Shown here piece by piece: positions 5,617 to 56,500 of a DNA stretch of 64,000 bases. Within the stretch, counting starts at the first letter, position 1; each line of letters begins with the position of its first letter. Origin of the DNA: Blattamonas nauphoetae (Eukaryota; Preaxostyla; Oxymonadida); contig JARBJD010000065.1 in the NCBI GenBank assembly GCA_033064195.1, positions 124,001-188,000 of the forward strand, in the 5' to 3' direction. The position numbers were made by a program, and so were the translations under genes. The notes beneath the pieces were generated by a model that searched no databases, had not been told where the DNA came from, and saw nothing but the letters and a program-made list of their open reading frames with translations.

Positions 5617-5937
5617 AAGAAGGAGTCGGAGTCGGTCGGTCAGGCCGACTTTTTGTCCGATGTTGGGGAAAGACAGACCGACTCAGGGACTCTTGAACCA
5701 CGACCCCAGAAACAGTAATTTCGTGAAAAATGTGATGAACTAATTATAGAGATGTTGTGAATCAAAAATGAGAAAAAGGCAACAATAAAGTGTCCCGGGC
5801 GGGATTCGATCCTGGGTCCGGGGAACAAAAAGCTGCGGTGCTACCGCTCGACTAAAGGGCACTTCAAAAAAGTCGCCGACTGTTTTGTTTTTAGGGACTG
5901 GACTCGATGTTTTCAGACCGACCACCGCCCATGCCTA
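5617..5937 (-). repeat. tRNA-derived SINE-like element, copy 1
   Basis: It is about 321 bp and collinear over its whole length with the copy at 15380-15702, with moderate divergence. On the minus strand it begins taggcatgggcggtggtcgg and contains a 73-nt tRNA-like core at 5862-5790: an acceptor pairing GTGCCCT with GGGACAC (one mismatch), an A-box-like TTAGTCGAGCGGTAGCAC, an anticodon-loop CTTTTTG (anticodon TTT) and a B-box-like GGATCGAATCC. The D and T stems are degenerate, so it is not a functional tRNA gene; it is what a pol III SINE core would look like. The core sits ~75 bp inside the element rather than at its edge, which is unusual. Confidence 0.7.
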
Positions 5938-8321
5938 TCATACAGAGGTTTCAGATCGAATTCGGCAATTCTGACTCCGTCTTTCGGATTGTGGAAGATT
6001 CAGGAATTATTTGTACTCTCTGTTCGAACTACTACAAAAACATCTTCAAAACACAGAAAGCTTTCATCAATCATCCTTCCTCGACGCTAAAATTCAACAA
6101 TTTAACGAAACATATCTCGTCTAGAAGACATCAAGCAGCAGAAAACGATGATGTGCCCACGAATGTTCCAAACAAGCGGTCGCTCCCGCTTCCTCAACTC
6201 TCTGAAATTCTACTCCAAAATCTATTTCGTGCCGTGCATTGGATAGTCAAAAACAATCAACCGATCCAACTGTATTCGTCACTAATTGAACTTCTAGATC
6301 GAGCCTCGGGTGTGCCATCGGAATCAGTAGGCACATATAGATCTCATCGATCGTTTCGGAAAGGCTTAGCAATTCTTTCAAAGACCTTCGGCTTCAGATC
6401 AAACAATCTGAATTCATCATTTCCAAAGTTTTGTCTTGTTCTCGACACTACCACAGATTTACTGGGTCAAACCCATCTCATTATTTTACTAACGTTCCTT
6501 GATTTGGATTTCACGCCACAATCACAAATCCTCGCACTTCCTGCATTGGAAACCTCATCAGGAGAGGAAATGCAAATCTCGATTCAGAATGTTCTATCGA
6601 AGCACAATCTCGACGTCTCACAATGCATTGGGCTTTCGACAGACGGGGCCAGTTCGATGGTAGGTCTCCAAAATGGATTGCTGGGAAGACTTAAGAGGGT
6701 TGGGTTCTGTGGCTTGCACGTTCACTGTTTTGCCCATCGTGTGCAAATCCTCATCAACAGAGTCCAACAATTCACCCACAATTCTCAATTTAAGCAAGCG
6801 ATCAAAGAGCTCCAACGTGGTGCAGCGTGGCTAAGAAAGAGTGGGAACAGGAGGAAACGATTGGAGGCACTGCAGAGACACCAACATTCCCATCTCACAA
6901 CTATCCCGATTGTCCATCGAATCCGGTGGACGTCGGTGTATCGGTCTCTCACCCACGCTATCGCTGTCTTTTCTTCCATGAGAAAAGTCATCCAGTCTTT
7001 TGCTTCATCACGCAAAAAGGATCTATCCTTGAAGTCGGCTTGGTCAAGTTCTCTACTGTCACAATTTATCATTCTCGAACGAATTTTAACACCTCTAAAC
7101 AATCTGACACTTGCTGTGCAGTCGGAAAGGCTCACAGTTTTTACGCTTCAGCAGAAGCTCAATCAAACTATCCTGGAACTCTCTGAAATTGGCTCACCAT
7201 CTCTTCTCCTCGAGTCAATTTCGAATCGAACACTGTTTGATGCATCTCTACAGGATCTGGAAATTGTGAGTAATGGATTGAGGATGGCAGCTGATTTGGA
7301 GAAAGAGTTGCGGGCCGAGACAAAACAAGGAGAGTGGAGGTTGTTGGTGGACTTATTTTCTTGGACCGACGTAGACGAACTAATGATGTCGAGGAGCGCA
7401 TTCAAACAGCTATCGGATCTCCTCTCCGGACATTTTCCCACTTTTCAAACAATTTCTCTCGATGCTGAATTTGATCGTTATGTTCTAGTCTGTCAAGAGA
7501 ATCCAGGTCTTTCTCTCGAAAGAGGCCTCCAGAGGGCACTTCATTTCTCGAGTATGAACGACGTTGGTTCGTTTCCACGCATCACCCTTTTTTCTCACAT
7601 GTGTTTCATCCTTTCTCCTACTTCAGTTGCTGCTGAGAGAGGATTCAGCCGAAAGAACCGGATAAAGACTTCATTCCGAATGTCTCTCTCGAACAAAACC
7701 TTGGAGGCCCTCTTCCTTCACTCAACAAATGGGCCAGAGACTCTCTCAGAAGATCAGCTCACTTCACTCATCTCAAAGTTAAGACAAAAACATCCACTGA
7801 CTCGATATTCACCGATTCGACGCGGTGTGAAGCGCTATGGGTCTCCAGAAATCTCAGTTGGTGAAAAGGTGATGAAGCCAGGGATTGGATTTGGAACCCA
7901 GATTGAAAGGCTCTCAGCTGAAATGGATCGATGTGATGAATGGGAAAGAGAAAGTGAAGCTACTCTGGTCTGGAGCAGTTTGGCCAATGAACAGACTCAT
8001 TCTTCAATGCTGGTGCTCCCGTGTTCAAACGACTCAATCAGATCCATGCCAGTTCCATTTGATGCTCCACTTCACAATCACACCAACTTTGAACAGGTGA
8101 ATTCATTCCCTCCTCGTTTTGACCCGGTTTTCCAACATTTCTCTGGCCGCCGGAATCAAGAAGTGGAAAAGCAAGATACTCCTTCTTTGTCAACACAGAT
8201 TCAGAAAGCCTTTTCGTCACAGGAGGACAATTTCGGGACAGAACAGCAGGATTCTTCGGATCTGAATGAAGAAATGATGGAGAATTCGATGTTGTACCTT
8301 CCGACAATGCGATTTTCTTGA
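5907..8321 (+). CDS. hAT-superfamily DNA transposase
   Basis: This is an uninterrupted 804-codon ORF ending in TGA. Residues ~30-75 form a zinc-finger-like segment (TLCSNYY ... KHISSRRH). The RNase H-like core shows VLDTTTDLLGQTH (~175), GLSTDGASSMVG (~244) and HCFAHRVQI (~273), as in hAT transposases of the ZNF862/KIAA type. The C-terminal dimerisation block SPTSVAAERGFSRKNRIK is at ~570-590. Both candidate start codons (5907 and 5931) lie inside the SINE-like repeat that abuts the ORF, so either the repeat donated the start or the true N-terminus was replaced. I did not find terminal inverted repeats or an 8-bp target duplication. The intact frame argues for recent activity or domestication. 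Confidence 0.85.
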   Translation: MFSDRPPPMPIIQRFQIEFGNSDSVFRIVEDSGIICTLCSNYYKNIFKTQKAFINHPSSTLKFNNLTKHISSRRHQAAENDDVPTNVPNKRSLPLPQLSEILLQNLFRAVHWIVKNNQPIQLYSSLIELLDRASGVPSESVGTYRSHRSFRKGLAILSKTFGFRSNNLNSSFPKFCLVLDTTTDLLGQTHLIILLTFLDLDFTPQSQILALPALETSSGEEMQISIQNVLSKHNLDVSQCIGLSTDGASSMVGLQNGLLGRLKRVGFCGLHVHCFAHRVQILINRVQQFTHNSQFKQAIKELQRGAAWLRKSGNRRKRLEALQRHQHSHLTTIPIVHRIRWTSVYRSLTHAIAVFSSMRKVIQSFASSRKKDLSLKSAWSSSLLSQFIILERILTPLNNLTLAVQSERLTVFTLQQKLNQTILELSEIGSPSLLLESISNRTLFDASLQDLEIVSNGLRMAADLEKELRAETKQGEWRLLVDLFSWTDVDELMMSRSAFKQLSDLLSGHFPTFQTISLDAEFDRYVLVCQENPGLSLERGLQRALHFSSMNDVGSFPRITLFSHMCFILSPTSVAAERGFSRKNRIKTSFRMSLSNKTLEALFLHSTNGPETLSEDQLTSLISKLRQKHPLTRYSPIRRGVKRYGSPEISVGEKVMKPGIGFGTQIERLSAEMDRCDEWERESEATLVWSSLANEQTHSSMLVLPCSNDSIRSMPVPFDAPLHNHTNFEQVNSFPPRFDPVFQHFSGRRNQEVEKQDTPSLSTQIQKAFSSQEDNFGTEQQDSSDLNEEMMENSMLYLPTMRFS

Positions 8322-17061: not shown

Positions 17062-18332
17062 ATGAACTTCTACGATGGAAACGCTCTTCCAAATCCACTT
17101 TATCTTGATCTGCGCAATCCATTAGAACAAGACAATGCAATAAACTACGTTCCGCAACTTCATCAGTACCAAATTCAGCCACAACCAGAGCCGCCACAAA
17201 TTAATCAGCAAGCCCTTCATGCTGAGGTAGACATGTACGAAGCGTTGGCCCCTCCTCCTCCACCTCCGCCTCCGCCTCCGCCTCTGGTACCACTTCTACC
17301 AATCCTCCATCGACCATACACTCCAGCCACACCTGAAAGAGAGTCCGACTGACGCTCCTGTATCGTGAGAATGGAGAGACAAAATCAGTCACGTGGTATG
17401 CGCAACGGGTAACGCTCACTGTCCCAACAACAACTCGCTTCATTCGACAACTTCGCCGAGGCGAATCAATTACTCACAATCTTCCACGAAGAGGCAGACC
17501 GGATCGAAGGAACGACAGGTTCCGCAATCAGGAAGTTAGACGGCTGCTCCAGGAGGACGGACAGCGAACTCTCAGAGAGATGGCGGCACATCTCAGCGCG
17601 CAAGGTCACCAGACAAGCCCAACAACAGTCTTTCGGATGTTGTCACAGCGGAATGAAGTAAACCGAGACATGCCTCTATTCTCCTTCAAACGTGTCAGAG
17701 TGAGAGCTCCAGCGGCCAACACAGAAGAAAACAAGAATGCTCGCGTGGCTTTCATCCAAAATGCGATGGCTCACATCCGCGACGGATGGTTTCCAATCTT
17801 CTTGGACGAAACATTATGGAACATCGAATGCGTGCGGAGATACGGATGGGCTGAAGTTGGCAGGGCTCCACTCGTCGCAAGACCGACCAATTTCGTTTCG
17901 TTGACCGCGATTACGTCAATCTCACCCAATGGAGTTGGTCACACAGAGCTCATTCGAGGTCCAATCACTGCCGATGTCTTCGAAGCATATCTCAGGAGAC
18001 TCCTTGAAACCAACACAGCTCGACGTAGATGGGTTCTTATCCTGGACAACGCCGGAATACACCATGTGGCCACTCAGAACATCGTTCTCGAGGCAAATCA
18101 ACGAATTCTGTACAACGCCGCTTACAGTCCAGACCTGAATCCCATCGAAAATGTCTTTGGCTTCTGGAAAAACAGAGTGGAAGCACAAATTCGTGACTGG
18201 CAAGGAGAGAATCACTTTTTGGATCAGATTCGTGAAGCATTTTCGCAGATCTCTCCTGATGAAGTCTTCAGATGCATTGAAAGTTGTCGAGCGGTTCAGT
18301 GGCCTCGAGCAGTAAGGCGAGAGGATATGTAA
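17062..18332 (+). CDS. Tc1/mariner-like transposase, two overlapping frames
   Basis: The first ORF (17062-17352) encodes a Pro-rich N-terminus with eleven consecutive prolines. The second frame is open from 17337 and contains the HTH region: TKSVTWYAQRV, the GRP linker in LPRRGRPDRRN, then the second helix set REMAAHLSAQGHQTSPTTVF. The DDE core follows: FLDETLWN, LILDNAGIHH and YSPDLNPIENVF, with about 33 residues between the second Asp and the Glu. The first ATG of the second frame (17580) would leave out half of the DNA-binding domain. Expression therefore needs a -1 frame change or splice near 17336, or the Pro-rich ORF is unrelated. The product ends with TAA. It acts in the nucleus by cut-and-paste at TA sites. 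Confidence 0.85.
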
Positions 18333-30755: not shown

Positions 30756-30892
30756 TTTTATTCTGTTTTCACACATTTATTGACTTTTAATGTGTTTATC
30801 TATATTATTCACAAGATTGCATTATCAGCATTTCGCAATAAGTTAGAATTTTTCGATTTGATGGGTCGCTTGATCTCATCTCGAACCAAGAA

Positions 30893-31213
30893 ATGGACAC
30901 ATCTAAAGGCATTTGGAATCGATACCGCACGTCCACTCCCGGACTTATTCAAACATTGGACTTGTTTATCGTCTTCTGCGGCGTGATGGTTGTGGCAGTG
31001 TTTGGATACGGCCTGGTCTTCACAACACAGCCATTCAATGCATTCATCTCTGCGATTTTTGCTACCGCTGGTCCTCTGTTCTTCACGATCAGTTTGAGAA
31101 TGCAAATCCTCAATCCAAAGGAGTTCAACAACATGTCTCCAGAATGGGCATTTCTCTCTTACCTTGCCTGCATAGGACTCCTCTTCTTTGTGATATCAAG
31201 CTTCCTTGGCTAA
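30893..31213 (+). CDS. DAD1: DAD1/OST2 subunit of oligosaccharyltransferase
   Basis: This single-exon ORF has 106 residues. It has the family layout: a short N-terminus with STPGLIQTLDLFI, three hydrophobic helices (FCGVMVVAVFGYGLVF, AFISAIFATAGPLFFTISL, LACIGLLFFVIS) and the signatures PFNAFIS, SLRMQI and NMSPEWAF. It ends SFLG-TAA, matching the FVG end of other DAD1 proteins, so TAA is a true stop here. DAD1 is a membrane subunit of the ER complex that transfers N-glycans to nascent proteins. It lies 137 bp after the ARM gene. Confidence 0.92.
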   Translation: MDTSKGIWNRYRTSTPGLIQTLDLFIVFCGVMVVAVFGYGLVFTTQPFNAFISAIFATAGPLFFTISLRMQILNPKEFNNMSPEWAFLSYLACIGLLFFVISSFLG

Positions 31214-31561: not shown

Positions 31562-34500
31562 ATGACTGAAATCAGTCCGGAACAATATCGTCTCTTTTTC
31601 TATCCTGACTTGATATGTTTTCTCTTCATTCTGTAGGATGGGTCCAGACAGTCAACTTTGACTGGGATTCACTCGATGAGCCAATTGAATACATGAAACA
31701 GATTTCTAAGTGCGCTACCTCGCTAGAAGATTTCAGAGATCGTTATATCTATACAAGGAAGCGTCTACTGTTCCTTTCTCGTCTCGCAAGTACGGGAATT
31801 CACATCAAACTCGCCACTTTCATCGCAAACGAATTTTACAAGTCGGCTGAATGTATGGCGTTTATATTCTTCTCATTGAATTATTTATTTTTTTAAAAAT
31901 CCGTTTAGCTGAGATGAAGACCAGAAATATGCTTGACAACAAGGGATTCAAAGGTTCTTTTCATTCCATCTCTTCACTGTTGATACCTAATTTCAATCAG
32001 CATCTGCCGGTGATCTCGCGAAATATGATGAGTGTCATCCATTAACGTCACTGCCAGAACATATGCAAACGATATGGTCTGGAAAGAGTGACTCCGGAAA
32101 TATTGGGTACAAACCAGGAATGCGACCTCTTCCTGGAGGACCAGTGAAAAAAGCCAAGGCCAAGTGGGTCAAACAAAACGGTCAATGGGTCCAGGTCAAG
32201 CCACAAGAGGAGGAAGATGATGGAGAGGAATTCGAAGAAGTTGTCGGAGCAGACGGAAAGCGAGTCCGTCGGGTCGTAAAAGAAGGTGCATCACGCGCGA
32301 AAAAGGGAAAAGCTGGTGTTACCCAAAAAACGGAGATCACAGAAAAGGGAGGAGGAGACGATGAAGAAGAGACACAGCAAAGTCAGGGAATGAAAGCTTT
32401 TGCCAAGCGAAAGAAAGCCGCACAAGAAAGCAAACAAGACAAAGAAGATGAAGATGATAAAGATGCAACTGTTCTCAGTGTTAAACTTCCTGCACCCATA
32501 CCAAAAGTCGATCTAAATGGACCGGAACCAGATCTCTCTAAAATGTCGGCTGTACAACGGATGATCTACGAAAAACGAAAGAAAGAGAAGGAAGCTGAAG
32601 AGGCACAACATCCAAAATCTCCATCTCCCATTCCAGCCTCACAAAGAACTGGAGCACAAAAACCAGCTACATATGCTCCATCTGCTGTTACAACCAAAAT
32701 TGGTGCTTTAATGAGCAAATATGAGAAGGATGTCCCTCATAAAATGGAAAAAGTTAAGATCAAAGTCCTCAACGGAAAGAAGATGATGATCGGTCCAGAT
32801 GGTACTGTTTTGGGAGAATACAAGGGATTCATTCCAGGAGAAGGCAACTGGAAGGAAGGTGAAGAATATGGCGCATACATTCGAAGCAACTATGTTGAAT
32901 CAACCGGTCCTGGTGGGGCAAAGATCTTCCGCCCTGCCTACCAATACAAAGGAGACACAGATCCCGGCCCTACAGAAACTAGGAAAGTCACTGTTAAGAA
33001 TGGAAGTGTTTTGGTGGAGAGGAAGCCTGATGATCCAATCCTGAAGCGCGATGGAGAAAAAGCGAAATATGAAGGAGAGTATACTGGATATTTGAAAGAC
33101 GAAGCAAAGATGGAAGAAGGAAAAAGCTATACTGTTCAAATTCCAGTTGCTCTCATCAAAACAATTGGTCCAGCTGGCAATATGTTCCTTCACGATGCTG
33201 TCGAAGTCGCTGAAGTTGGAGGTGACGAAAGTTCGCCAACTGCTAAAGCTGAGAAAAGAACTATTGAAATCAATGACGGACGAAAAATGCTTCTTAGAAA
33301 GGAAGATGATCCCCAACGCAGCAAACCTGGTGAAGAAGGTCAGTTTGAAGCTGAATACACGGGAAGAATCCCTGGTGAAGAAAAAATGAAAGAAGGAAAG
33401 AAATATGACATCCTCCTCAAGCATGATTGTCTGAAAACTGAAGGTGTTCTCGGAAAAAGGGAAATCAAATCAGTCCGTGAAGCTGTCGATGTCTCGCATG
33501 AAAACGCCACTCCTCGCCAAATCGAAATTGTGAAAAGCCGGAAAATGCTTATCAAAGAAGATTATGACGGAAAAAGCAAAAAGGAGGAAGATAAATTCAA
33601 CGGAGAAATTGTTGGTCGTGTGGACCAAGAACAAACTTTTGAGGAAGGAAAAACTTATAACTCAAAGATTATTGATCTTGTTACAACAAGTGGACCAGAA
33701 GGACGCCGTATTCTCCGCACCCAAACCGAATTATCTAATCCAAATCTCGGAGTTGTCGGAGCAGCTGTTGAACACGACCAAGGAGAGCCAGGCAATGACA
33801 AAAAGCAATACAAAGTGAAAGTTAAGGACGGGAAGAAGATTCTCGTTGACGAAGACGGCAAAGAAATCGGTGAATACATGGGATACATTCCAGGTGAGGA
33901 GCACATGAAAGATGGAGAGACATACGATGTGGTCCTCTCCACAAATCTCGTCAAAACACTTGGCCCGAACAAAGCCCCACAATACCAAGATCCGACAGAC
34001 GCTCGCGGAGGTATGGGTGCTCAGAACGACTGGAACGGGGCTGAAAAGGAGGAAAGGACGATCGAAATCAAAAATGGGAAGAAAATGCTTCTCCGAAAGG
34101 AAGACGACCCTCTCAGGTCACTTCCTGGTGATGAGGGGCTGTATGAGGGAGAATATGCAGAGTACATTCCAGGCGAAGAGGAATGGAAGGATGGTGACAC
34201 ACTCCAAGTTGAGATTCCAAAGAATTACGTCACAATGAAAGGGCCGAATGGGACGACAGTTCTGAGACATGGAAACGACAAATCAACTACTGATGGAGTT
34301 GGAGGAAAGAAGAAAAGCGGTGATGAAGTCGCTTTAGAGAAGAAAACAATCAAAGTCATCAACGGAAAGAAGATGGTTCTCGACGAAGCCGGAAACGTGA
34401 TTGGGGAATACATGGGCTACATTCCAGGCGAAGAGAACTGGAAAGAAGGGGAACAATACGACGTTCTGTTGAAGGATGATTATCGAATGGAAGCTGGACC

Positions 34501-37500
34501 CAACGGACAAGCCAAAATGTATCCGAGACACGCACAGAGCGCTGCCAGTGGAATCGGTGAGGCTCGTAAGATTGAAATCAAAGACGGGAAGAAGATGCTT
34601 CTCCGAAAAGATGATGATCCTCTCAGATCTCTTCCAGGTGACGAAGGAAAGTATGAAGGGGAAATCGTTGATCACATCCCTGATGAGGAGAACTTCGAGG
34701 AAGGCAAAGTGTATAATGTCAATATCGGTCAACTCATCCCAACTGTCGGTCCAAACGGTGATCGCAAACTGTACAGTGCAGAATCACTCCATCCTGACAA
34801 CGCCGGCACGAAAGGAAAGGCGGTGAAGAAAGGATCAGGCGAGCCAGGTTCGGAAACAGAGAAGAGGAAAATCAAAGTTGTGGATGGCAAGAAGATGCTT
34901 CTGGATGAAAATGGAAAGGAAATCGGAGAGTACATGGGATACATCCCAGGCGAGGAGAACTGGAAAGATGGGGAAGTCCACGATGTCATGCTTCCGGTCA
35001 ACTTGGTTGTGTTGAAAGGACCAAACGGAAAGACAAAGGTGTATGATCCTGCAGATACTGATGGAGGACTCGGACGCAGCACGACTGGAGAAGACACAGC
35101 CACGCAAGAAAGAAAAATCAAGATTGTGAATGGGAAGAAGATGATCTTTGACAAAGATGGAAAGATGATTGGTGAATACATGGATTACATACCAGGCGAG
35201 GAGAAATGGAAGGATGGCGAGGAGCACATGGTCCAAGTTCCCATTGATCTTCGCGTGACTTTGGGACCGAACGGACAGAAGCAGGTACGAAGCGGAGGAA
35301 GTGGTGAGGAAGGAGATCTTGAGGGAGAAAACAAGAAAGCGTCCAAAATCCGAATTCGGGACGGAAAGAAGTACATTGTCGATGAGGATGGAAATGAAAT
35401 CGGAGAATACAAAGGTTATATTCCCGGCCAGGAATACATGAAAGAAGGGGAGGAATACACTGTCATGCTTCCTGCTGGAATGATCGAGACGACAGGGCCG
35501 AATGGGGAGAAACTCTTCCGAGACCCAGCCAGTTTCCGAGATGGGTTTGGTGACAAATCAAAGGAAGGAGAAGTGAAGATGAAGGAGAGAACGATCAAAA
35601 TCGACAAAAGTCGAAAGATGCTTCTCAGAAAGAAGAAAGATCCGTTCCGCGGACTCCCTGGAGAGGAGGGCAAGTACGAAGGGGAGTACACTCCATATCT
35701 TCCTGGCGAAGACGCGATGAAAGAAGGCAAAAAGTACAAAGTTATGATTCCAAAGGGATATGAAGTGTTGATTGGACCAAATGGACAACGAATGATCTAC
35801 AACAAGGCGCCTAAGGATGATAAGGAAGTCAAGGAAACTAAGGAAATGAAGATCAAGTTGGTGAATGGGAAGAAGATGGTTCTTGACGAGGCAGGAAACG
35901 TGATCGGGGAATATAAGGGATTCATTCCTGGAGAGGAGAAATGGAAGGAAGGAGAGGAGCAGACAGTCAGCATCCCTGATGACTACATCATCACAACAGC
36001 TCCAGACGGAACCAAACACTACGTCCCGAGATCAGGCCCAACTGGAACAGAAACCAGACAGATCAAGATCATCAACGGAAAGAAAATGTTGGTTGATGAA
36101 AAAGGAAATGTTGTTGGTGAGTATCAGGGATACATCCCGGGCGAGGAGAACATGAAGGAAGGAGAGACGTACAACGTCAAACTCTCCAAAGGATTGGTCT
36201 ATCGCAAAGGACCAAATGGAAACACGATGATTTATGATCCATCAGACGCTCTCGGAGGTCTTGCGGAAGAGCAGAATGATCTCCCAACACAGGTCCGAAA
36301 GATTGAGATCAAGGATGGACGAAAGATGCTTCTCCGAAAAGATGATGATCCTCTCAGATCCCTCCCAGGTGACGAAGGAAAGTATGAAGGGGAATACATG
36401 GACTACATCGAAGGGCAAGAAGATTTGAAGGATGGAGACATTGTCGAAGTCAATATCCCGATCAATCTGAGGATTGGCAAGGGACCGAATGGCCAGACAC
36501 AGATTCATGTTGCTGGACTATCGAAGGAGGCGGAGAAGAAAGGAGGAGATGTGAACACAGAGAAGCAGGTCGTTAAGATCATCAACGGAAAGAAAATGCT
36601 GCTTGATGAAGACGGAAATGTGATTGGGGAATATGTTGGATATATTCCAGGCGAAGAGAACTGGAAGGAAGGGGAAGAGTATGAAGTGATGCTCAAGGAG
36701 GGATATCGTGTCGAACAAGGACCGAATGGGGCGTTCAAAGTGTATCCAAGGAATCATGCGAATGCCGACGACGAAAACGGTGAGACTCGAAAGATTGAGA
36801 TCAAAGACGGGAAGAAGATGCTTCTCCGAAAAGACGACGACCCTCTCAGATCTCTCCCAGGTGACGAAGGAAAGTATGAAGGGGAAATCGTTGATCACAT
36901 CACTGGAGAGCACGAGTTCAAGGAGGGTCAGACGTACGACGTGAAACTCGGACATTTGGTCAGAACTGACGGACCCGATGGAAAGCCTCATCTTCGACTG
37001 GAAGCGAACCTTCACACGGACAACCTTGGAACGAAGGGAAAGGCCGTCAAGAAGGGGACAGGTGAGCCTGGAAAGGAGTTTGAGAACAGACAAATCAAGA
37101 TTGTCAATGGGAAGAAGATGCTTCTGGATGAAAATGGAAATGAAGTTGGGGAGTATATGGGATACATCCCGGGCGAGGAGAACTGGAAGGAAGGAGAGAC
37201 ATACACCGCCAAATTGTCGACAAATCTCGTTGTGACAACAGGACCGAATGGACAGAAGCAAGTCCGTGATCCAAACAACTCACAGGGAGGGTTCGGATCG
37301 GATGTCAAACACGGAAACGTCGCGACACAAGAAAGGAAGATCAAGATCATCAACGGAAAGAAAATGTTGTATGATGAGAACGGGAATGAGATTGGAGAAT
37401 ACATGGATTACATCCCAGGCGAGGAGAACTGGAAGGAGGGCGAAGAACACACTGTTCAGATCCCAATTGATGTGTCAGTGATGATCGGACCCAACGGACA

Positions 37501-40500
37501 GAAGCAGGTCAGATGCAGCGGAAAGGATGACAGGTCACATCCAAATCAGACTGCTGTTGCTCCCGGTGATGCTGGAACAGAACAACGTGTCATTGAAATC
37601 AAGAACGGAAAGAAAATGTTGCTCAGAAAGGAAGATGATCCCCTCAGAGCCCTTCCTGGCGACGAAGGAAAGTATGAAGGTGAGTTGATTGACTACGTTC
37701 CTGGAGAGGGGGCGCTGAAGGATGGAGACCAATTGACCATCACTGTCAACAAGAACCTTCGTTCCTTTAAGAACGGTTCAGGTGAAACACAGCTGACTTC
37801 GGGTCTGGAAACTGGAGCTGATGAGAACGGAGAGATTGCGACTGAAAAGAGAAGCATTCGCGTTGACCAAGGTCGAAAGATGCTCATCCGAAAAGAAGAC
37901 GACCCCAAGCGCAAAATGAGTGGTGAAGATGGAAAGTTCGAAGGACAGTGGATGCCGTATATTCAAGACGAGGAAACGTGGAAGGAGGGCGACACTCACG
38001 AGGTTGATCTCCCGATTCTGTACATGATCCACAAAGGACCTAATGGACAGAACCTCATCAATGTCTGTGATCCTGAAGAGATGAAACAGGAAGACTACGA
38101 CTCGGTCGAGTTCGAGTTCCAGTTTGAAGAGTCTGGACCGAGATTTGTTGAGAAGAAAGCGAAGATTATCAAAACAGATGCGGAAGATGATGATCTGCTT
38201 GCCAATCGTCGTACTGCGGGTGGAGTGGTTGAGGAAGTCCTTGAAAATGATGAGGAAAGCGAGCTTCTTCGCCAGGAGGAAGAGGAACTTCGTCGCAAGC
38301 AAGCTGAAGAAGCAGCGAAGGAGGGACTTGGAATTGACTCGTCGGTCACGTTCACGTTCGATGACCGCTCAGAAAAGATGATTCTGCATGTCTACGATGC
38401 AACCAAGAAGATCTTCACTCATCAGGCCCACAAAGGAAAGGTTGACAAGATGGTCTTGAAGAAGGAAGGCTCCTTCTCATACAGATCTCTTGAACTTGAG
38501 CAGAATCAGGAGAAAGTCAAGTACATCGTTCATGGACCCATCACTTCTCCACAAGAGCTCAACACGATGAAGTGTTACGCTAAGACGCAGGGTGTCATCA
38601 CACAATTCGCCAAGGAGTTCAATGATTGTGGGGTTCCTAAGAAAGTCACTGTTGCTCGTGTTGGTCTTCTTCAATTCGCTGAGCGTGTTGGAATGCCGCT
38701 GTTCTTCGCTGTTCAGACAGACAATGTCGAATATCTGTCTGAAGCGTTCAATGGGGAGGGGGATCGATTCACTCTGATCGACGGAACACAAACAGAACAC
38801 GAAGATCTCGTCGCACTGCAGCATTACACATTCAACAAAATGAACAATGAAATGTTGATTGAGAAGGCTGTTGGTGAGATCACGCCGCTTGGCTACCACT
38901 TTGTCATGACTGAAGCTTGCTCGATGGACAGCCGTTTCTGGACTGGTCAGAGCGGAGCGATCACTCGTTCCAAGTTGGGCGAGTTCATGTCAACTCACAA
39001 CTGCAACAAGGTTTGCGAAATGTTGAGCGTTGAAGAAGGAGAAGACGCCACTGAGACCAGTGAGGAGTCACTTCAGATCATCGAGGCACTGAAGGTTGCT
39101 CTTAAGAGTAAGGAAGACGTGAAAGTTCAAGTTGCGATGGTTCCGTTTGTCACAACCTTCGGAAAACTCGAAATCTGCCTCAATACACCCGCCCTTGAAG
39201 ACGAGGAGCTTCTCACTCTTCTGGTTGAAGGAATCAAGGAGACCAAAGACGATGATCTCCAACAGAAACAACTCGCTGCAATGCTAATCCTCACCCACCG
39301 AGCCAACAACCGTGTCAGAATCGCCAAATTAGGCGCCATTCCACTCATCCTCAAGTTAATCGAATCCCAATATCAGTCGAATGCTGATGTTGTGAAGAGA
39401 GGAGGCCACATTATCTGGAGTCTCACTCGAAAAGAGTCAAACAGACCAATTGTCAGAGACAACAAGGGAATCGCAATTTTGGCAAATTGTGTTGCTTTCT
39501 ACGGCGAGAAGGACGCCGACGCTTGTCAGAAGGCTTGCAACGTGTTGTGGAACATGTCGACTGGAGAAGAGAACAAAAAGGCGTTTATGGACCCATGCGG
39601 AGTTGTTGGAGGCAAGCCACCGAAGACACCATCTGCCTTCCTCACATCATGCTTCAAGATTGTCGAGCAGTGCAAGGCAATCAGCCCAAGAACTGTTCTT
39701 GCTGTTGCTGGAATGCTTCTCAACTTGTCAAACAATGAAGTTCTCGGAGAGTGCATCTACAGTGTTCCAAACTGCCTCCAGACTGTTGCCACAGCCACAT
39801 CAGCAATGATTGAGACTGATCCTCACGTTGGCAACTCGCTGATTTCGCTCATTCAGAATCTTGGCTCTGACGAGAAGGGAGCTGAGAAACTGGTGAAACA
39901 AGGAACACACAAGGTCCTTCTCAAAATGGGAAAAGACTTCAGCAAGAAGCCAGATGGAACCATTGTCGTTGATCGTGTCCTCTCTGCTCTCACAAACATG
40001 TGTGCCTGCGAAGCTGCGATCTCTGGTCTTGTGAATGACGGAGCCATCGACTTCTCAGTGGCTATCATTAAAGAGCACAAGGAAGACGCCAAACTGTGCA
40101 AAGCTGCGTTGGGTGTGATGAGAGAAATCTCGGCTGTTGAGGAATTCGCCGAGCCAATCGCTGATCAAGACGTCATCGATTCAATTCTGGATGTGGGTGA
40201 CCATTACACAATGAACGATGCTCTTGTCGTCGGAACGGCTTTGGAGATTATGGTGAATCTCACAGCAAGCGAAGACTTCAGAACGATGGTCGCTGGAGAG
40301 GAGACACTCAAGAAGATCCTCCAACTTCTGTCGTCTCATGTGATGATTGATGAGGCAGTCGCCATTCTCGGTGTGAAGGTGATTGCGAATATCGCCATCT
40401 CAGATGCTTGCCAGGCTGAGATCGCAAACGCGAACGGAACAGACATTTTGGTCGACATTCTGAAAAAGAGAGCAGGAAAGATCGACAGGTTAGTGTTCAA

Positions 40501-41705
40501 CACAATCGCCTGCCTCTCAAATGTTCTGAATGATGATCAAAACAGTTGTGATTTCGTGGATGGAAAGGGAATTGTTCCTGTGATTAATATTTTGAAGCTA
40601 TGTCTGAACCCAACACAAGAATCTCTCACTCCACTCCCACGAATGACACTGAACGACGAGGAACCGACCCAAGAAGAAGCCTTCAAGCCAGATGTTGCCT
40701 TTGTCCACAATTTGATGAGCAAGTGCTGCAGTGTCCTCGGAAACATCACATTCGTCGAGGACAACATCCAACCACTCCTCGACGAGGGTGTCATGGACGT
40801 CATCTACCAATATCTCGACGTCTTCAACCAACGCGACACAACGCCAGCCCCAGCCACTCTCGCCCTCCCAGTTCTCAACCCATCACCGACAGCATCAATC
40901 TGCATTCGGTCCATCCTCCAACTCTTCAGCAACATCCTTGTCCTCCCATCGGCCAGAGAGGACCTGGCAAAGGACCCAACAGTCTACAAGCATCTCTCCA
41001 ACATCCTCAGAATTGGAGTGAAGAGACAGGAATTGATCTCAAATGGACAAAACTATGAATCACCTGATCCTGGCAAGAAGAAGATGACGATCGGACCAGA
41101 ACATAACTTCTTGTCGTATGGATGCGAGGTAATGCGCAAACTCGCTACCCTTCCGACAGGAAAGGTGGAATTGTCGAAGATCAACGCAATCCCACAGCTG
41201 ATCAAGATTGATCAGATTGAGGCCAAGATCCAAAAAGATATCGAGCGAGACGATGAGGACGAAGATGAACCAGAGTCCGGCGAGGTCCTCATTGAGTCAT
41301 GTAGTGGTGCCCTAACAAACGTCATCACAAAGAGCGGTTTGTTTCTTCATCTTTTTTTCAAATTCTCATACTTCTCTTTTTTTCTTATTCTCATCTTTCT
41401 CGTTTTTTTCATATTCTCATTTTTCTCGTTTTTTAGAAGAGAACTTGGCCCTCTTCATTAAGAGCGGTGGACTTCCAGCATTCAAAGATGTTTTGGAAGC
41501 AGTCGGCACAATCATTGAACCTGCAGCCAAGACGGTGTGTCTTGGTCTCATGAACATCTGCGGAAACAGTGTTTATGCGAAGGAATGTGGAAGTCTTGGT
41601 CTCGCCCCGATCTTGACGAAGGTCAAGAACCAATGGAAAGATGACGGTCCACAAACCGCGAAGTACGCTCAGAGTGCGGTTGAGCGTATCGAAAAGGCTA
41701 AGTAG
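31562..41705 (+). CDS. Giant protein: 21 tandem modules + alpha-kinase-like domain + ARM repeats
   Basis: Exons 31562-31589, 31637-31852, 31909-31953, 32001-41336 and 41437-41705 join in phase to 3,297 residues (MTEISPEQYR to ERIEKAK). Residues 1-120 are helical. About 346-2120 hold 21 modules of 65-90 residues built on NGKKMLLDENGNEIGEY, YIPGEENWKEG and GPNGQ, in a short and a long form. An acidic coiled linker follows. About 2212-2440 match the alpha-kinase fold: YAKTQGVITQFAKEFN, LLQFAERVGMPLFFA, LQHYTFNKM and STHNCNKVCEML. The zinc ligands are kept, but DLQG reads KAVG and TDP reads TEA, so catalysis is probably lost. From ~2450 to the end are armadillo helices. This is likely a cytosolic scaffold; I know of no protein with this order. 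Confidence 0.85.
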
Positions 41706-53352: not shown

Positions 53353-53551
53353 AGTTCTGTTTCTTCATTCTGTTATTCGTTCATTCGGTCACTTCTTTCT
53401 CCTTTTTCTCGATGATTGTGGACGTATAAAACGGAAAAACTGGCAAAATGATGATCGTTGGAAAAAGGAGATAAAAACAAGAAATAGGAATAAAAGAGTG
53501 AATTAAAACAAAAAACAAGAGTGAAATGATGACATTGCAAGGGGTACTAGT

Positions 53552-56500
53552 TCAGTAATTGAGGATAGACGAAAGGGTATCGTGAACCGATGTGAGGAGT
53601 GTTCTGATGTCTTTATTTGTGCTGAAATCCGGTTGAATGGCCTCAATGGTTGCATAAGTATCAGCCAATTCATCGTGTATCGTATTATGGAGCTCCCTGA
53701 GAATGAAATGTGAAGAATAGATGAGTCAGAGAGAGAATGAGCAAACTGTTCTTCATCATCGTTTGATTCATCTTTTTTGAGCTTGTTCTCGAATGTCTCC
53801 AACAGACTCTTCAGCATTTCTGCTCCAGTTGAAACCTCATTTGGGTTTGGACATCGCAAGAGAGTGTTGATGTTCGGGAGCAGGCGAGACATGTCTGAAA
53901 ATGAGATGATTCCACCAAAACCCGATTTCTTCGAAAGAAACACTTTGAAGAACGAGACGATGGCTGCATTGTCTTTGCAGAAGGAGTTTTCTGGCCTGTC
54001 TGACTTGAATTCCGGGTCATAATCCAGCACTCCGATGATCCCTTTCATTTTACTGCTTCGATAGACTGATACGAGAGACGTGACGTTCTCGTTTCGATGG
54101 CAGAGTGTGTCGTATACACTTTTATGTGACGAAGTGATTGAGTCAATGACGAACAAGTCATCCAGTCCACGCGTTCGGTCTCGTTCGAGTTCGGTCTGCC
54201 CTCGTTTGACTTGGTTGATGAGGCCCTTCACTCCAACACTTTCGATGTTGGGGACAAAGACAACTTCGGGCTGTTGTGGTTGTTCCTGTTCGGCTCGGTC
54301 GGCTCGTTTCGGTGCTGTTTGCGGGACTTTCTTTGGTTGGATGGGCGATGGATTGGGGGATTCTGGGCGTGCTTTCGGGAATTGGGGAGGAGGAAGATTT
54401 GAAAATTTGGGTTCCGATTTGACCCGTTGTGGTTTGACCTTTTTTTGAACTTTGGGCTCGCTTGGAGTTGGACCTTTGTCTCGAAGCTCGCCCTTTTTGG
54501 CCTCTTTCAGTTGGTTCTCCCACAGATTCTCCATCTGAGCGAGTGCGTTCTCTCTGCTTTCTCGTTTCTGGATTGTCGAGGAGAGTTGGGCTGGCTGGTC
54601 CGTTGATTGTTTGTCAAAGATTTTCATCAACTTCTTCTCAAACCGAATTTGGTTGAGAGGAGTGTCGAATGCGTTGGATGGGATCTTCACGTTGAGTTCC
54701 TGCGCCAGAGCGATAAGGTCCTGTTTCGTCATCGCTCGTTGGTTGAAGTCGATTGGTGAGAGGTCTGGTGTGTTGACAGGAATCAATTTCGGAGTCTCTT
54801 GTTGTGTTTGAGGAGACTGCGATGGTGCTGTTGCTGGTGCGTGTGATGGGACAGGTGAATTGGTCGGCTGAGAAAGTGATAAGCAATGAGGAACACACTG
54901 TGCCTTGTGATCTTGCTGTGGAGGGTGGTTTTTGCTCTTTCTTCTTCGGGAGGACGAATGCTCGTCTGGTCCCTTGAGGAATTGGGTCGGATTCTTCCGC
55001 AGGACTGGGAGTATCTCGCTCTCGAGGCTTTCCTTCCTTCTCGTCAGTCTTCGGATCGACCTTTTTGTCTGATTTTGGTGTGACCAGTTTGTCGTCGTTC
55101 TTCTCGTCATCGTCGTCTTCCCACTCTTTCGTGTATTCGATGTCATCGCTGTCATCCTCCTTGTTCACCTTCACGTTTAAAGCAGTATCTTCGAACTCAT
55201 CGGATGAACTCGTCGACTCGTTCTCCCCTTTCGGCTCTTCGCTCTTGTCGTTGTCTTCTTTTTCTTCGGTCTTGTCGTGATCCTCTTTTTCTTCGGATAG
55301 CTTTTTCTGTTCCTCCTTCATCTTCAATTTTCGTAATTCTTGCTCCAATTCAGCTTGATCGATTTGAACGTATGTTTGGTTCATGAATTTGACATTCAGT
55401 GTTCCATCATCGTCGCTTGACTCTTCGTAATCATCGTCTTCGTTGCCTGTCGACCAATCAGAATACTTTCCTTGGACTGAAATGCCAGATTTGTGTTTGT
55501 GTTCACTTTGAGAACTTTTCCAGGGTTCAATATGTTCATTTCCGACGGCAGAAAAGGTAAGGGTCGTATCTTTTGCAGAAACGGTGCAGATTTCTTCGTC
55601 GAAGACTTGGAATGCTCCAACCTTTCCTGAAGGAATATTGAGTCGATCCAAGGTCTTTCCGCCCATACCCCGACCATATGGATCTTCCCATGTGCAAAAC
55701 CTAATTGCATCTTCGGAGGAAATGCATAAGACTGCACCGTCATTCCCTGCAAATTGAAGTTGTCGAATCGTCTTCTCCTGTTTAATATCACACAACTGTT
55801 GGAAGTTTCTGAGATCATAAACCTTTGCAGTCCTGTCAGCACTTCCAGTAGCAAGAATTGTTTTTGTGGGATGAAGTGAGAGACATGTTGCTGGTCCTGA
55901 GTGAGGGAAAGAGGTGTGATTGAAAAAATCAGAATAAAACCGTTGTGTTGGAAGGTTTTTATTGATTTTTCTTGTTGTAGATCGATGAGTGAAACAGTAT
56001 TATCACCTCCAGCTGTGAATAAATACTTTCCATCTGGACTCATTGAAACATTGTTCACAACTCCATTATGAACTTTGTATGTGTGAAGACATTGTCTGGT
56101 TTGAATATCCCATATCTTTGCAGAGGTGTCATGACTTCCAGTACAGAGAAAGCGACCATCTGTAGAGAAGCTTACACATCCACAGGTCTGGTGGTGGCCT
56201 GCTGGGAATACTTTGACACCTAAAGGAAGAATATGAAGGAAGGCGTTGATATACTTTGTTGTTGCTCATCTTGAAAATCCCAGACACGTAGTCCACCTCC
56301 AAAGTTACCAGACGCGATGAGTCGATCATCTGGACCAAATGCAACGCAAGTGACACCAGATGCATGTCCTGACAATTTCTAAAGCGAAAAACGAATCATG
56401 ATAGGATAGAACATCTGAAAAGAATCATACGACGGTTGGTTTGCCTTTCTTCTGCATGCTCTTGAGAGTCCACACACATGTCTTTTTATCATCACCTCCA

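Follow-up and report, generated by a model that had tools for sequence, protein, structure and literature searches.

In titin and related giant muscle proteins, small beta-domains stand in tandem arrays and a kinase-derived domain lies close to one end, ALPK3 has immunoglobulin (Ig) domains beside an alpha-kinase domain, and armadillo (ARM) repeats usually form docking surfaces. Blattamonas nauphoetae is a gut protist of the oxymonads, which possess a large microtubular skeleton. Oxymonads are known for the loss of mitochondria (PMC10703272), and Entamoeba EhAK1 is described in passages of PMC4192601 as an alpha-kinase joined to an SH3 domain and requiring its nucleotide-binding lysine for activity. 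Here a 64,000-nucleotide stretch of the B. nauphoetae genome ("the window") was analysed, centred on the gene BLNAU_9451, which sits on contig C612 of the 88.3-Mb, 837-contig genome and encodes an array of 21 tandem modules, an alpha-kinase-like block and an ARM-like tail. The protein is read, with a probability of roughly 0.6, as a non-catalytic scaffold.

Splicing of five exons (31562-31589, 31637-31852, 31909-31953, 32001-41336 and 41437-41705) yielded 3,297 residues with one stop, the terminal one, as proposed in an earlier note on this DNA, and the translation was letter for letter that of the public B. nauphoetae protein. Exon 4 holds 9,336 of the 9,894 coding bases (94%) and contains all 21 modules, the kinase block and nearly the whole ARM tail. 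Since one 9.3-kb exon spans the three regions, they form one polypeptide from one gene; this exon and the identical public protein rule out separate genes or a chimaeric gene model, separate genes being one of the outcomes that the earlier note had named as refuting its proposal. BLNAU_9451 is a hypothetical protein at NCBI and its UniRef name is taken from the alpha-type protein kinase domain. The public record's Pfam list also names PF13098, which was not listed by our own scans of exon 4 and of the whole protein. The main regions are as follows.

31562..41705, forward strand: BLNAU_9451, 3,297 residues, the splice equalling the public protein exactly.
32756..38104, forward strand: 21 tandem modules of 70-100 residues each (residues 349-2131), defined by hidden Markov model (HMM), leave-one-out scoring and a shuffle control.
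38351..39052, forward strand: alpha-kinase-like block (residues 2214-2447, Pfam match 2262-2435), defined by PF02816 and alignments to eEF2K and MHCK-A.
39053..41705, forward strand, with an intron at 41337-41436: armadillo/HEAT-like tail (residues 2448-3297), defined by five ARM-type profiles.

The profile PF02816 scored 31.3-31.4 bits (cut-off 21.3) against the whole protein, matching residues 2262-2435 with profile positions 14-185 of 185, and 37.4 bits (E 3.7e-9) against the block alone, which bears out the homology to alpha-kinases that had been proposed. An hhalign comparison of the block with a two-sequence eEF2K/MHCK-A profile gave a probability of 94%. Residues were compared across seven alignments (eEF2K 7shq; MHCK-A 4zs4, 3lmi and 3pdt; A2; A3; hhalign), an alignment to 9ocw being left out of the tally as a repeat of the eEF2K one; the seven are not independent, all being based on MHCK-A and eEF2K. 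Three of the sites compared are as follows.

38822..38824, forward strand: His2371, first zinc-site residue (in LQHYTF), aligned with MHCK-A His742 or its eEF2K counterpart in 7/7 alignments.
38864..38875, forward strand: Lys2385-Ala-Val-Gly (KAVG), replacing the catalytic Asp-x-Gln-Gly (DxQG) in alignments to MHCK-A and eEF2K.
38996..39016, forward strand: His2429-x-Cys2431-x3-Cys2435, remainder of the zinc site, aligned with MHCK-A His794, Cys796 and Cys800 or their eEF2K counterparts in 7/7 alignments.

All four residues of the zinc site, the zinc ligands of the family, are kept, as had been claimed. Similarity of the block to the solved alpha-kinases is weak but specific, and the profile match and zinc-site residues together indicate that it belongs to the alpha-kinase family by descent.

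The catalytic set fared differently. The partner of the catalytic Asp was Lys2385 in six alignments and Ala2386 in one (to a chain with Ala there), so an acid stood at this position in none; the claimed change from DLQG to KAVG with loss of the acid is upheld, the four alignments in which the whole motif is free of gap or slip giving KAVG. The Gln of DxQG was paired with Val2387 (4/7), Gly2388 (1/7) or nothing (2/7), the hinge Glu (MHCK-A Glu713) with Gln2335 (6/7) or Val2334 (1/7), and MHCK-A Asn781 with Ala2416 (5/7) or Gln2413 (2/7), none of the three ever being matched; Glu713 and Asn781 belong to the catalytic set of active alpha-kinases. The further proposal that the TDP motif reads TEA (Thr2400-Glu-Ala) was reproduced by 0/7 alignments, the partner of its Asp (MHCK-A Asp766) being Met2399 in three, Tyr2395 in two, Pro2392 in one and absent in one. 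The nucleotide-binding lysine, given as MHCK-A Lys645 in passages of PMC4876393, is probably lost, with His2274 in its place, judging from the boundary of the Pfam match and the spacing. That catalytic residues are gone while the zinc site is intact suggests a domain retained for its shape, and the block is likely a pseudokinase; this part of the earlier proposal is well supported by the residues, while the fold model is uninformative.

Several observations weigh against a non-catalytic, kinase-derived domain. The solved alpha-kinases match the block only weakly in pairwise comparison (eEF2K best, E 0.0097; MHCK-A, E 0.074-0.12). The single-sequence model of the block had a mean predicted local distance difference test score (pLDDT) of 36.6, with 213/253 residues below 50; the proposed alpha-kinase fold consequently rests on profile homology, structure prediction having given no confirmation, and as no homologues of the block were confirmed there was no alignment to fold it with. 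The searches described below likewise found no relative that would show constraint on the block. Where the TDP Asp falls varies between alignments, and the TEA placement would leave an acid, Glu2401; similarly, Glu2384 adjoins Lys2385, so that a slip of one residue would restore an acid, although this was seen in 0/7 alignments. Finally, the status of ALPK3, the model alpha-pseudokinase, is disputed: passages of PMC9698156 term it a pseudokinase and passages of PMC11358020, from another group, report activity. A kinase that is unusual yet active, or some other enzyme that uses ATP with substituted residues, would accommodate this precedent, the two glutamates near catalytic positions and the near-complete span of the Pfam match, but with four catalytic-set residues matched in 0/7 alignments and a histidine at the presumed beta7 lysine position we regard it as improbable.

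Two other explanations of the block were weighed. A phosphothreonine (Pi) pocket is present in MHCK-A and eEF2K according to passages of PMC4876393, and in alignment A3 Lys2310 and Thr2359 stand opposite two of its ligands, Lys684 and Thr736, as expected if the block had kept the pocket and read phosphopeptides instead of acting as a general scaffold. The third ligand that binds through its side chain, Arg734, pairs with Asp2357 in A3, where an insertion makes the alignment uncertain, and the odds of this reading are put as low. Still less probable is a functionless, decaying remnant that persists by being joined to the modules and the ARM tail, a view that would fit the lost catalytic residues and the want of a relative at hand to show constraint. 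The frame is open throughout, however, and the survival of 4/4 zinc-site residues with the catalytic set gone is a pattern that random decay would not favour.

Relatives of the block were sought in the genome and in databases. In the genome, PF02816 matched only BLNAU_9451 at E <= 0.001 (2/2 first-look candidates scored); each exon is searched separately, and further matches could be hidden by introns. No second copy of the kinase and ARM part was found there (9/9 candidates scored), and the weak match on contig C68 (E 0.0019, 19% identity) showed no Pfam family in a scan of a 192-residue piece. The protein searches covered proteins within set length limits that shared 5-letter words with the query. 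The kinase and ARM part matched one of 6,614 candidates, BLNAU_9451 itself; a search by kinase words with a query length of 995 residues matched none of 814 candidates at E <= 10; and the joint module-kinase-ARM architecture was not found elsewhere within these searches. Given the length limits, other oxymonads may have relatives that differ in length. Pattern-matching stretches in viral contigs (58 and 22) and in genome contigs (52 and 532, prokaryote) were examined by tblastn and none was confirmed as an alpha-kinase.

The tail following the block was matched by several ARM-type profiles. When scanned alone (exon 4 part, 39053-41335), it scored above the cut-off with ZER1-like (32.9 bits, cut-off 27), CCP1-like (30.2, 27), V-ATPase H (29, 25.7), Arm (23.3, 20.6, with no single stretch passing) and Arm_2 (21.4, 20.4). 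The ARMC5 profile gave the highest score, 73.6, yet this lies below its cut-off of 79.9. In the whole-protein scan ZER1-like alone of the five profiles was above the cut-off, Arm falling below.

An HMM of the module array recovered 21 modules, each at E 1.2e-23 or lower, and in leave-one-out scoring 21/21 modules reached at least 51 bits; a chance repeat was ruled out by shuffling, 0/200 shuffled proteins matching the array HMM at E < 10. The proposed count of 21 is thereby confirmed. The end of the last module was placed by hand; ten modules have a long loop and 11 a short one. Within the array, three features were compared or modelled.

34055..35341, forward strand: five-module block M6-M10, first copy of a higher-order repeat, compared with M15-M19.
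36296..37585, forward strand: five-module block M15-M19, second copy, compared with M6-M10.
37088..37585, forward strand: M18-M19, a predicted pair of small beta-domains (AlphaFold2).

The two five-module blocks are 65.4% identical over 419 aligned residues, with nonsynonymous (dN) and synonymous (dS) divergences of 0.26 and 1.68 and a dN/dS of about 0.16, dS being near saturation and not computable for one sub-pair. These values point to constraint at the protein level, in favour of the scaffold reading. For M18-M19, an AlphaFold2 model built on an alignment of 20 internal module pairs was mostly confident (mean pLDDT 82.0; 109/166 residues at 90 or above, 25/166 below 50), and the modules are predicted to be small beta-domains without a clear relative. 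For the module fold, Foldseek returned no match at E <= 0.001 against the PDB, and likewise none against viral models, and a search of solved sequences with the module profile gave no convincing hit (best E 0.21). Weak Pfam hits on single modules to ZGRF1-like_N, BppU_IgG and FlbD (E 0.06-0.09; 10/21 modules scanned) were discarded, BppU_IgG at E 0.082 on one module being below the family cut-off. The FxLYD profile (NCBIfam NF038353, cut-off 23 bits) scored 61.3 bits on the whole protein, presumably as a sum over the repeats, with a best stretch covering only positions 26-57 of 71; on single modules it reached E <= 0.1 in 5/21, the best at 22.7 bits being below the cut-off.

An array of OB/S1-like domains binding nucleic acid, which would make the protein nucleic-acid-associated, was also considered, since OB-type barrels, going by the names, make up many of the 50 VIA-align rows (cold-shock, NusA, EF-P/IF5A, telomere-end proteins and proteasomal ATPases). 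Isoelectric points (pI) fell below 6.5 in 20/21 modules, M12 being basic, and the net charge was negative in 19/21. This acidity disfavours a plain nucleic-acid-binding array, to which we give little credence.

The same modules fill other large frames in this genome, where at least 62 module matches were found (25 of 34 candidates scored). Two giants carry 25 modules each: a 3,651-residue frame on contig C146 (216413-227365, reverse strand) and a 3,164-residue frame on contig C45 (12878-22369, forward strand), the latter probably continuing into a further exon. They are colinear, 21/25 modules having their best match in the same-numbered module of the other giant, with a mean same-index identity of 57.6% (range 41-72%), and a helical block at the N-terminus appears by eye to be common to both. 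The C146 tail (905 residues) is rich in Lys (14.8%) and Pro (11.0%), whereas the C45 tail is 58% Glu, Lys and Arg and includes a 290-residue stretch that is at least 90% E/K/R/A/L/D/Q; this long charged tail is probably helical. Neither tail gave a Pfam match below E 0.2 (985 residues scanned for C146, 634 for C45), and neither a kinase nor an ARM region was found in the two giants. A protein search with the modules returned one match among the 7,985 candidates scored, whose number was capped, BLNAU_9451 itself, and the length limits probably explain why both giants were missed.

A block reading LWILEMEIRD or LWVLEMEIRD was seen by eye at the end of C146 and in the frames C45:22373-23029 and C45:22969-25587 just downstream of the C45 giant. 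Short dispersed module frames (L020-L032), many with stops, lie on contigs C35, C355, C107, C527, C203, C234, C825, C754, C200, C277 and C46. The 11 frames inspected, taken from 10 of the 13 short loci with module matches, appear by eye to be degenerate fragments, mainly of the C45-type gene, and were left out of the gene count.

A structural role is made more plausible by the two other giants, which are built of the same modules and end in low-complexity or charged tails. The best reading is accordingly a family of scaffolds, their role being inferred, in which an alpha-pseudokinase and an ARM tail would serve one member for binding. The array would be a structural spacer fitted with different ends; in BLNAU_9451 the zinc-held C-lobe of the kinase-derived domain may be kept as a protein-binding surface and the ARM tail may provide a second, while the 21 modules would space partners out or hold them along a structure of the cytoskeleton, the whole working without phosphotransfer. 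The binding or scaffold function proposed by the earlier note gains plausibility from the two giants and is still inference, and the cytoskeletal setting is suggested by the large microtubular skeleton of oxymonads. A bolder version, which we hold as a speculation and think unlikely, makes the modules a new domain family for titin-like elastic giants that serve the unusual microtubular skeleton of this oxymonad lineage (21-25 beta-modules with Pro-rich or charged-helix tails), one of which would have gained an alpha-pseudokinase and an ARM tail independently, paralleling the kinase giants of muscle although the cell has no muscle.

Two regions complete the protein.

31562..32755, forward strand, introns included: N-terminal region (residues 1-348), by eye a helical start followed by charged low-complexity sequence; no Pfam family was found on residues 1-164 (E <= 1) or on 32003-32719 (E <= 10).
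38105..38350, forward strand: acidic linker (residues 2132-2213), net charge -13 over 82 residues.

Elsewhere in the window lie a DAD family protein (30842-31210, forward strand; Pfam E 6.9e-25), an oligosaccharyltransferase subunit; a 1,754-residue frame with two thioredoxin-like domains (PF18402, PF18401; 42385-47646, reverse strand), presumably UDP-glucose:glycoprotein glucosyltransferase; a possible katanin p80 gene (53506-55999, reverse strand), whose overlapping frames encode a katanin con80 domain and WD40 repeats; and hAT-type and DDE_3 transposase-like frames (5895-8318 and 17337-18329, forward strand).

In the literature searched, two papers named the organism, the locus prefix BLNAU was not mentioned, and alpha-kinase, armadillo and protist together retrieved nothing beyond a trypanosomatid kinome. 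If the scaffold reading is true, alpha-kinases without activity became structural components outside the animals, with the catalytic acid itself lost, and a pseudokinase stands in a genome with no other alpha-kinase match found. The module domain, for its part, fills at least three giant frames of one oxymonad.

BLNAU_9451 resembles the alpha-kinases (MHCK-A, eEF2K, TRPM7; PF02816) in its profile match through the C-lobe and in its zinc-site residues, but differs from them in the unmatched catalytic Asp, hinge Glu, DxQG Gln and Asn781 and in the fusion of the block to modules and an ARM-like tail. The tail is matched by ARM-type profiles as in ARMC5/ZER1-like proteins, although the ARMC5 profile stayed below its cut-off and nothing else known from ARMC5 or ZER1 was matched. 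In an outline comparison with ALPK3, each protein has an alpha-kinase domain whose cleft residues are altered, and each is linked, BLNAU_9451 putatively, to a structural lattice, whereas Pfam listed no Ig family for BLNAU_9451, either in exon 4 (E <= 10) or in the whole protein (E <= 1). Like titin, it joins a long array of small beta-domains, here predicted, to a kinase-derived domain near one end; unlike titin, its modules have no Ig or FN3 match over the Pfam cut-off and its kinase is of the alpha type, and homology is not implied. Within the limits of these searches novelty is most likely for the module family, and while the kind of protein is known, the form it takes in BLNAU_9451 appears to be new.

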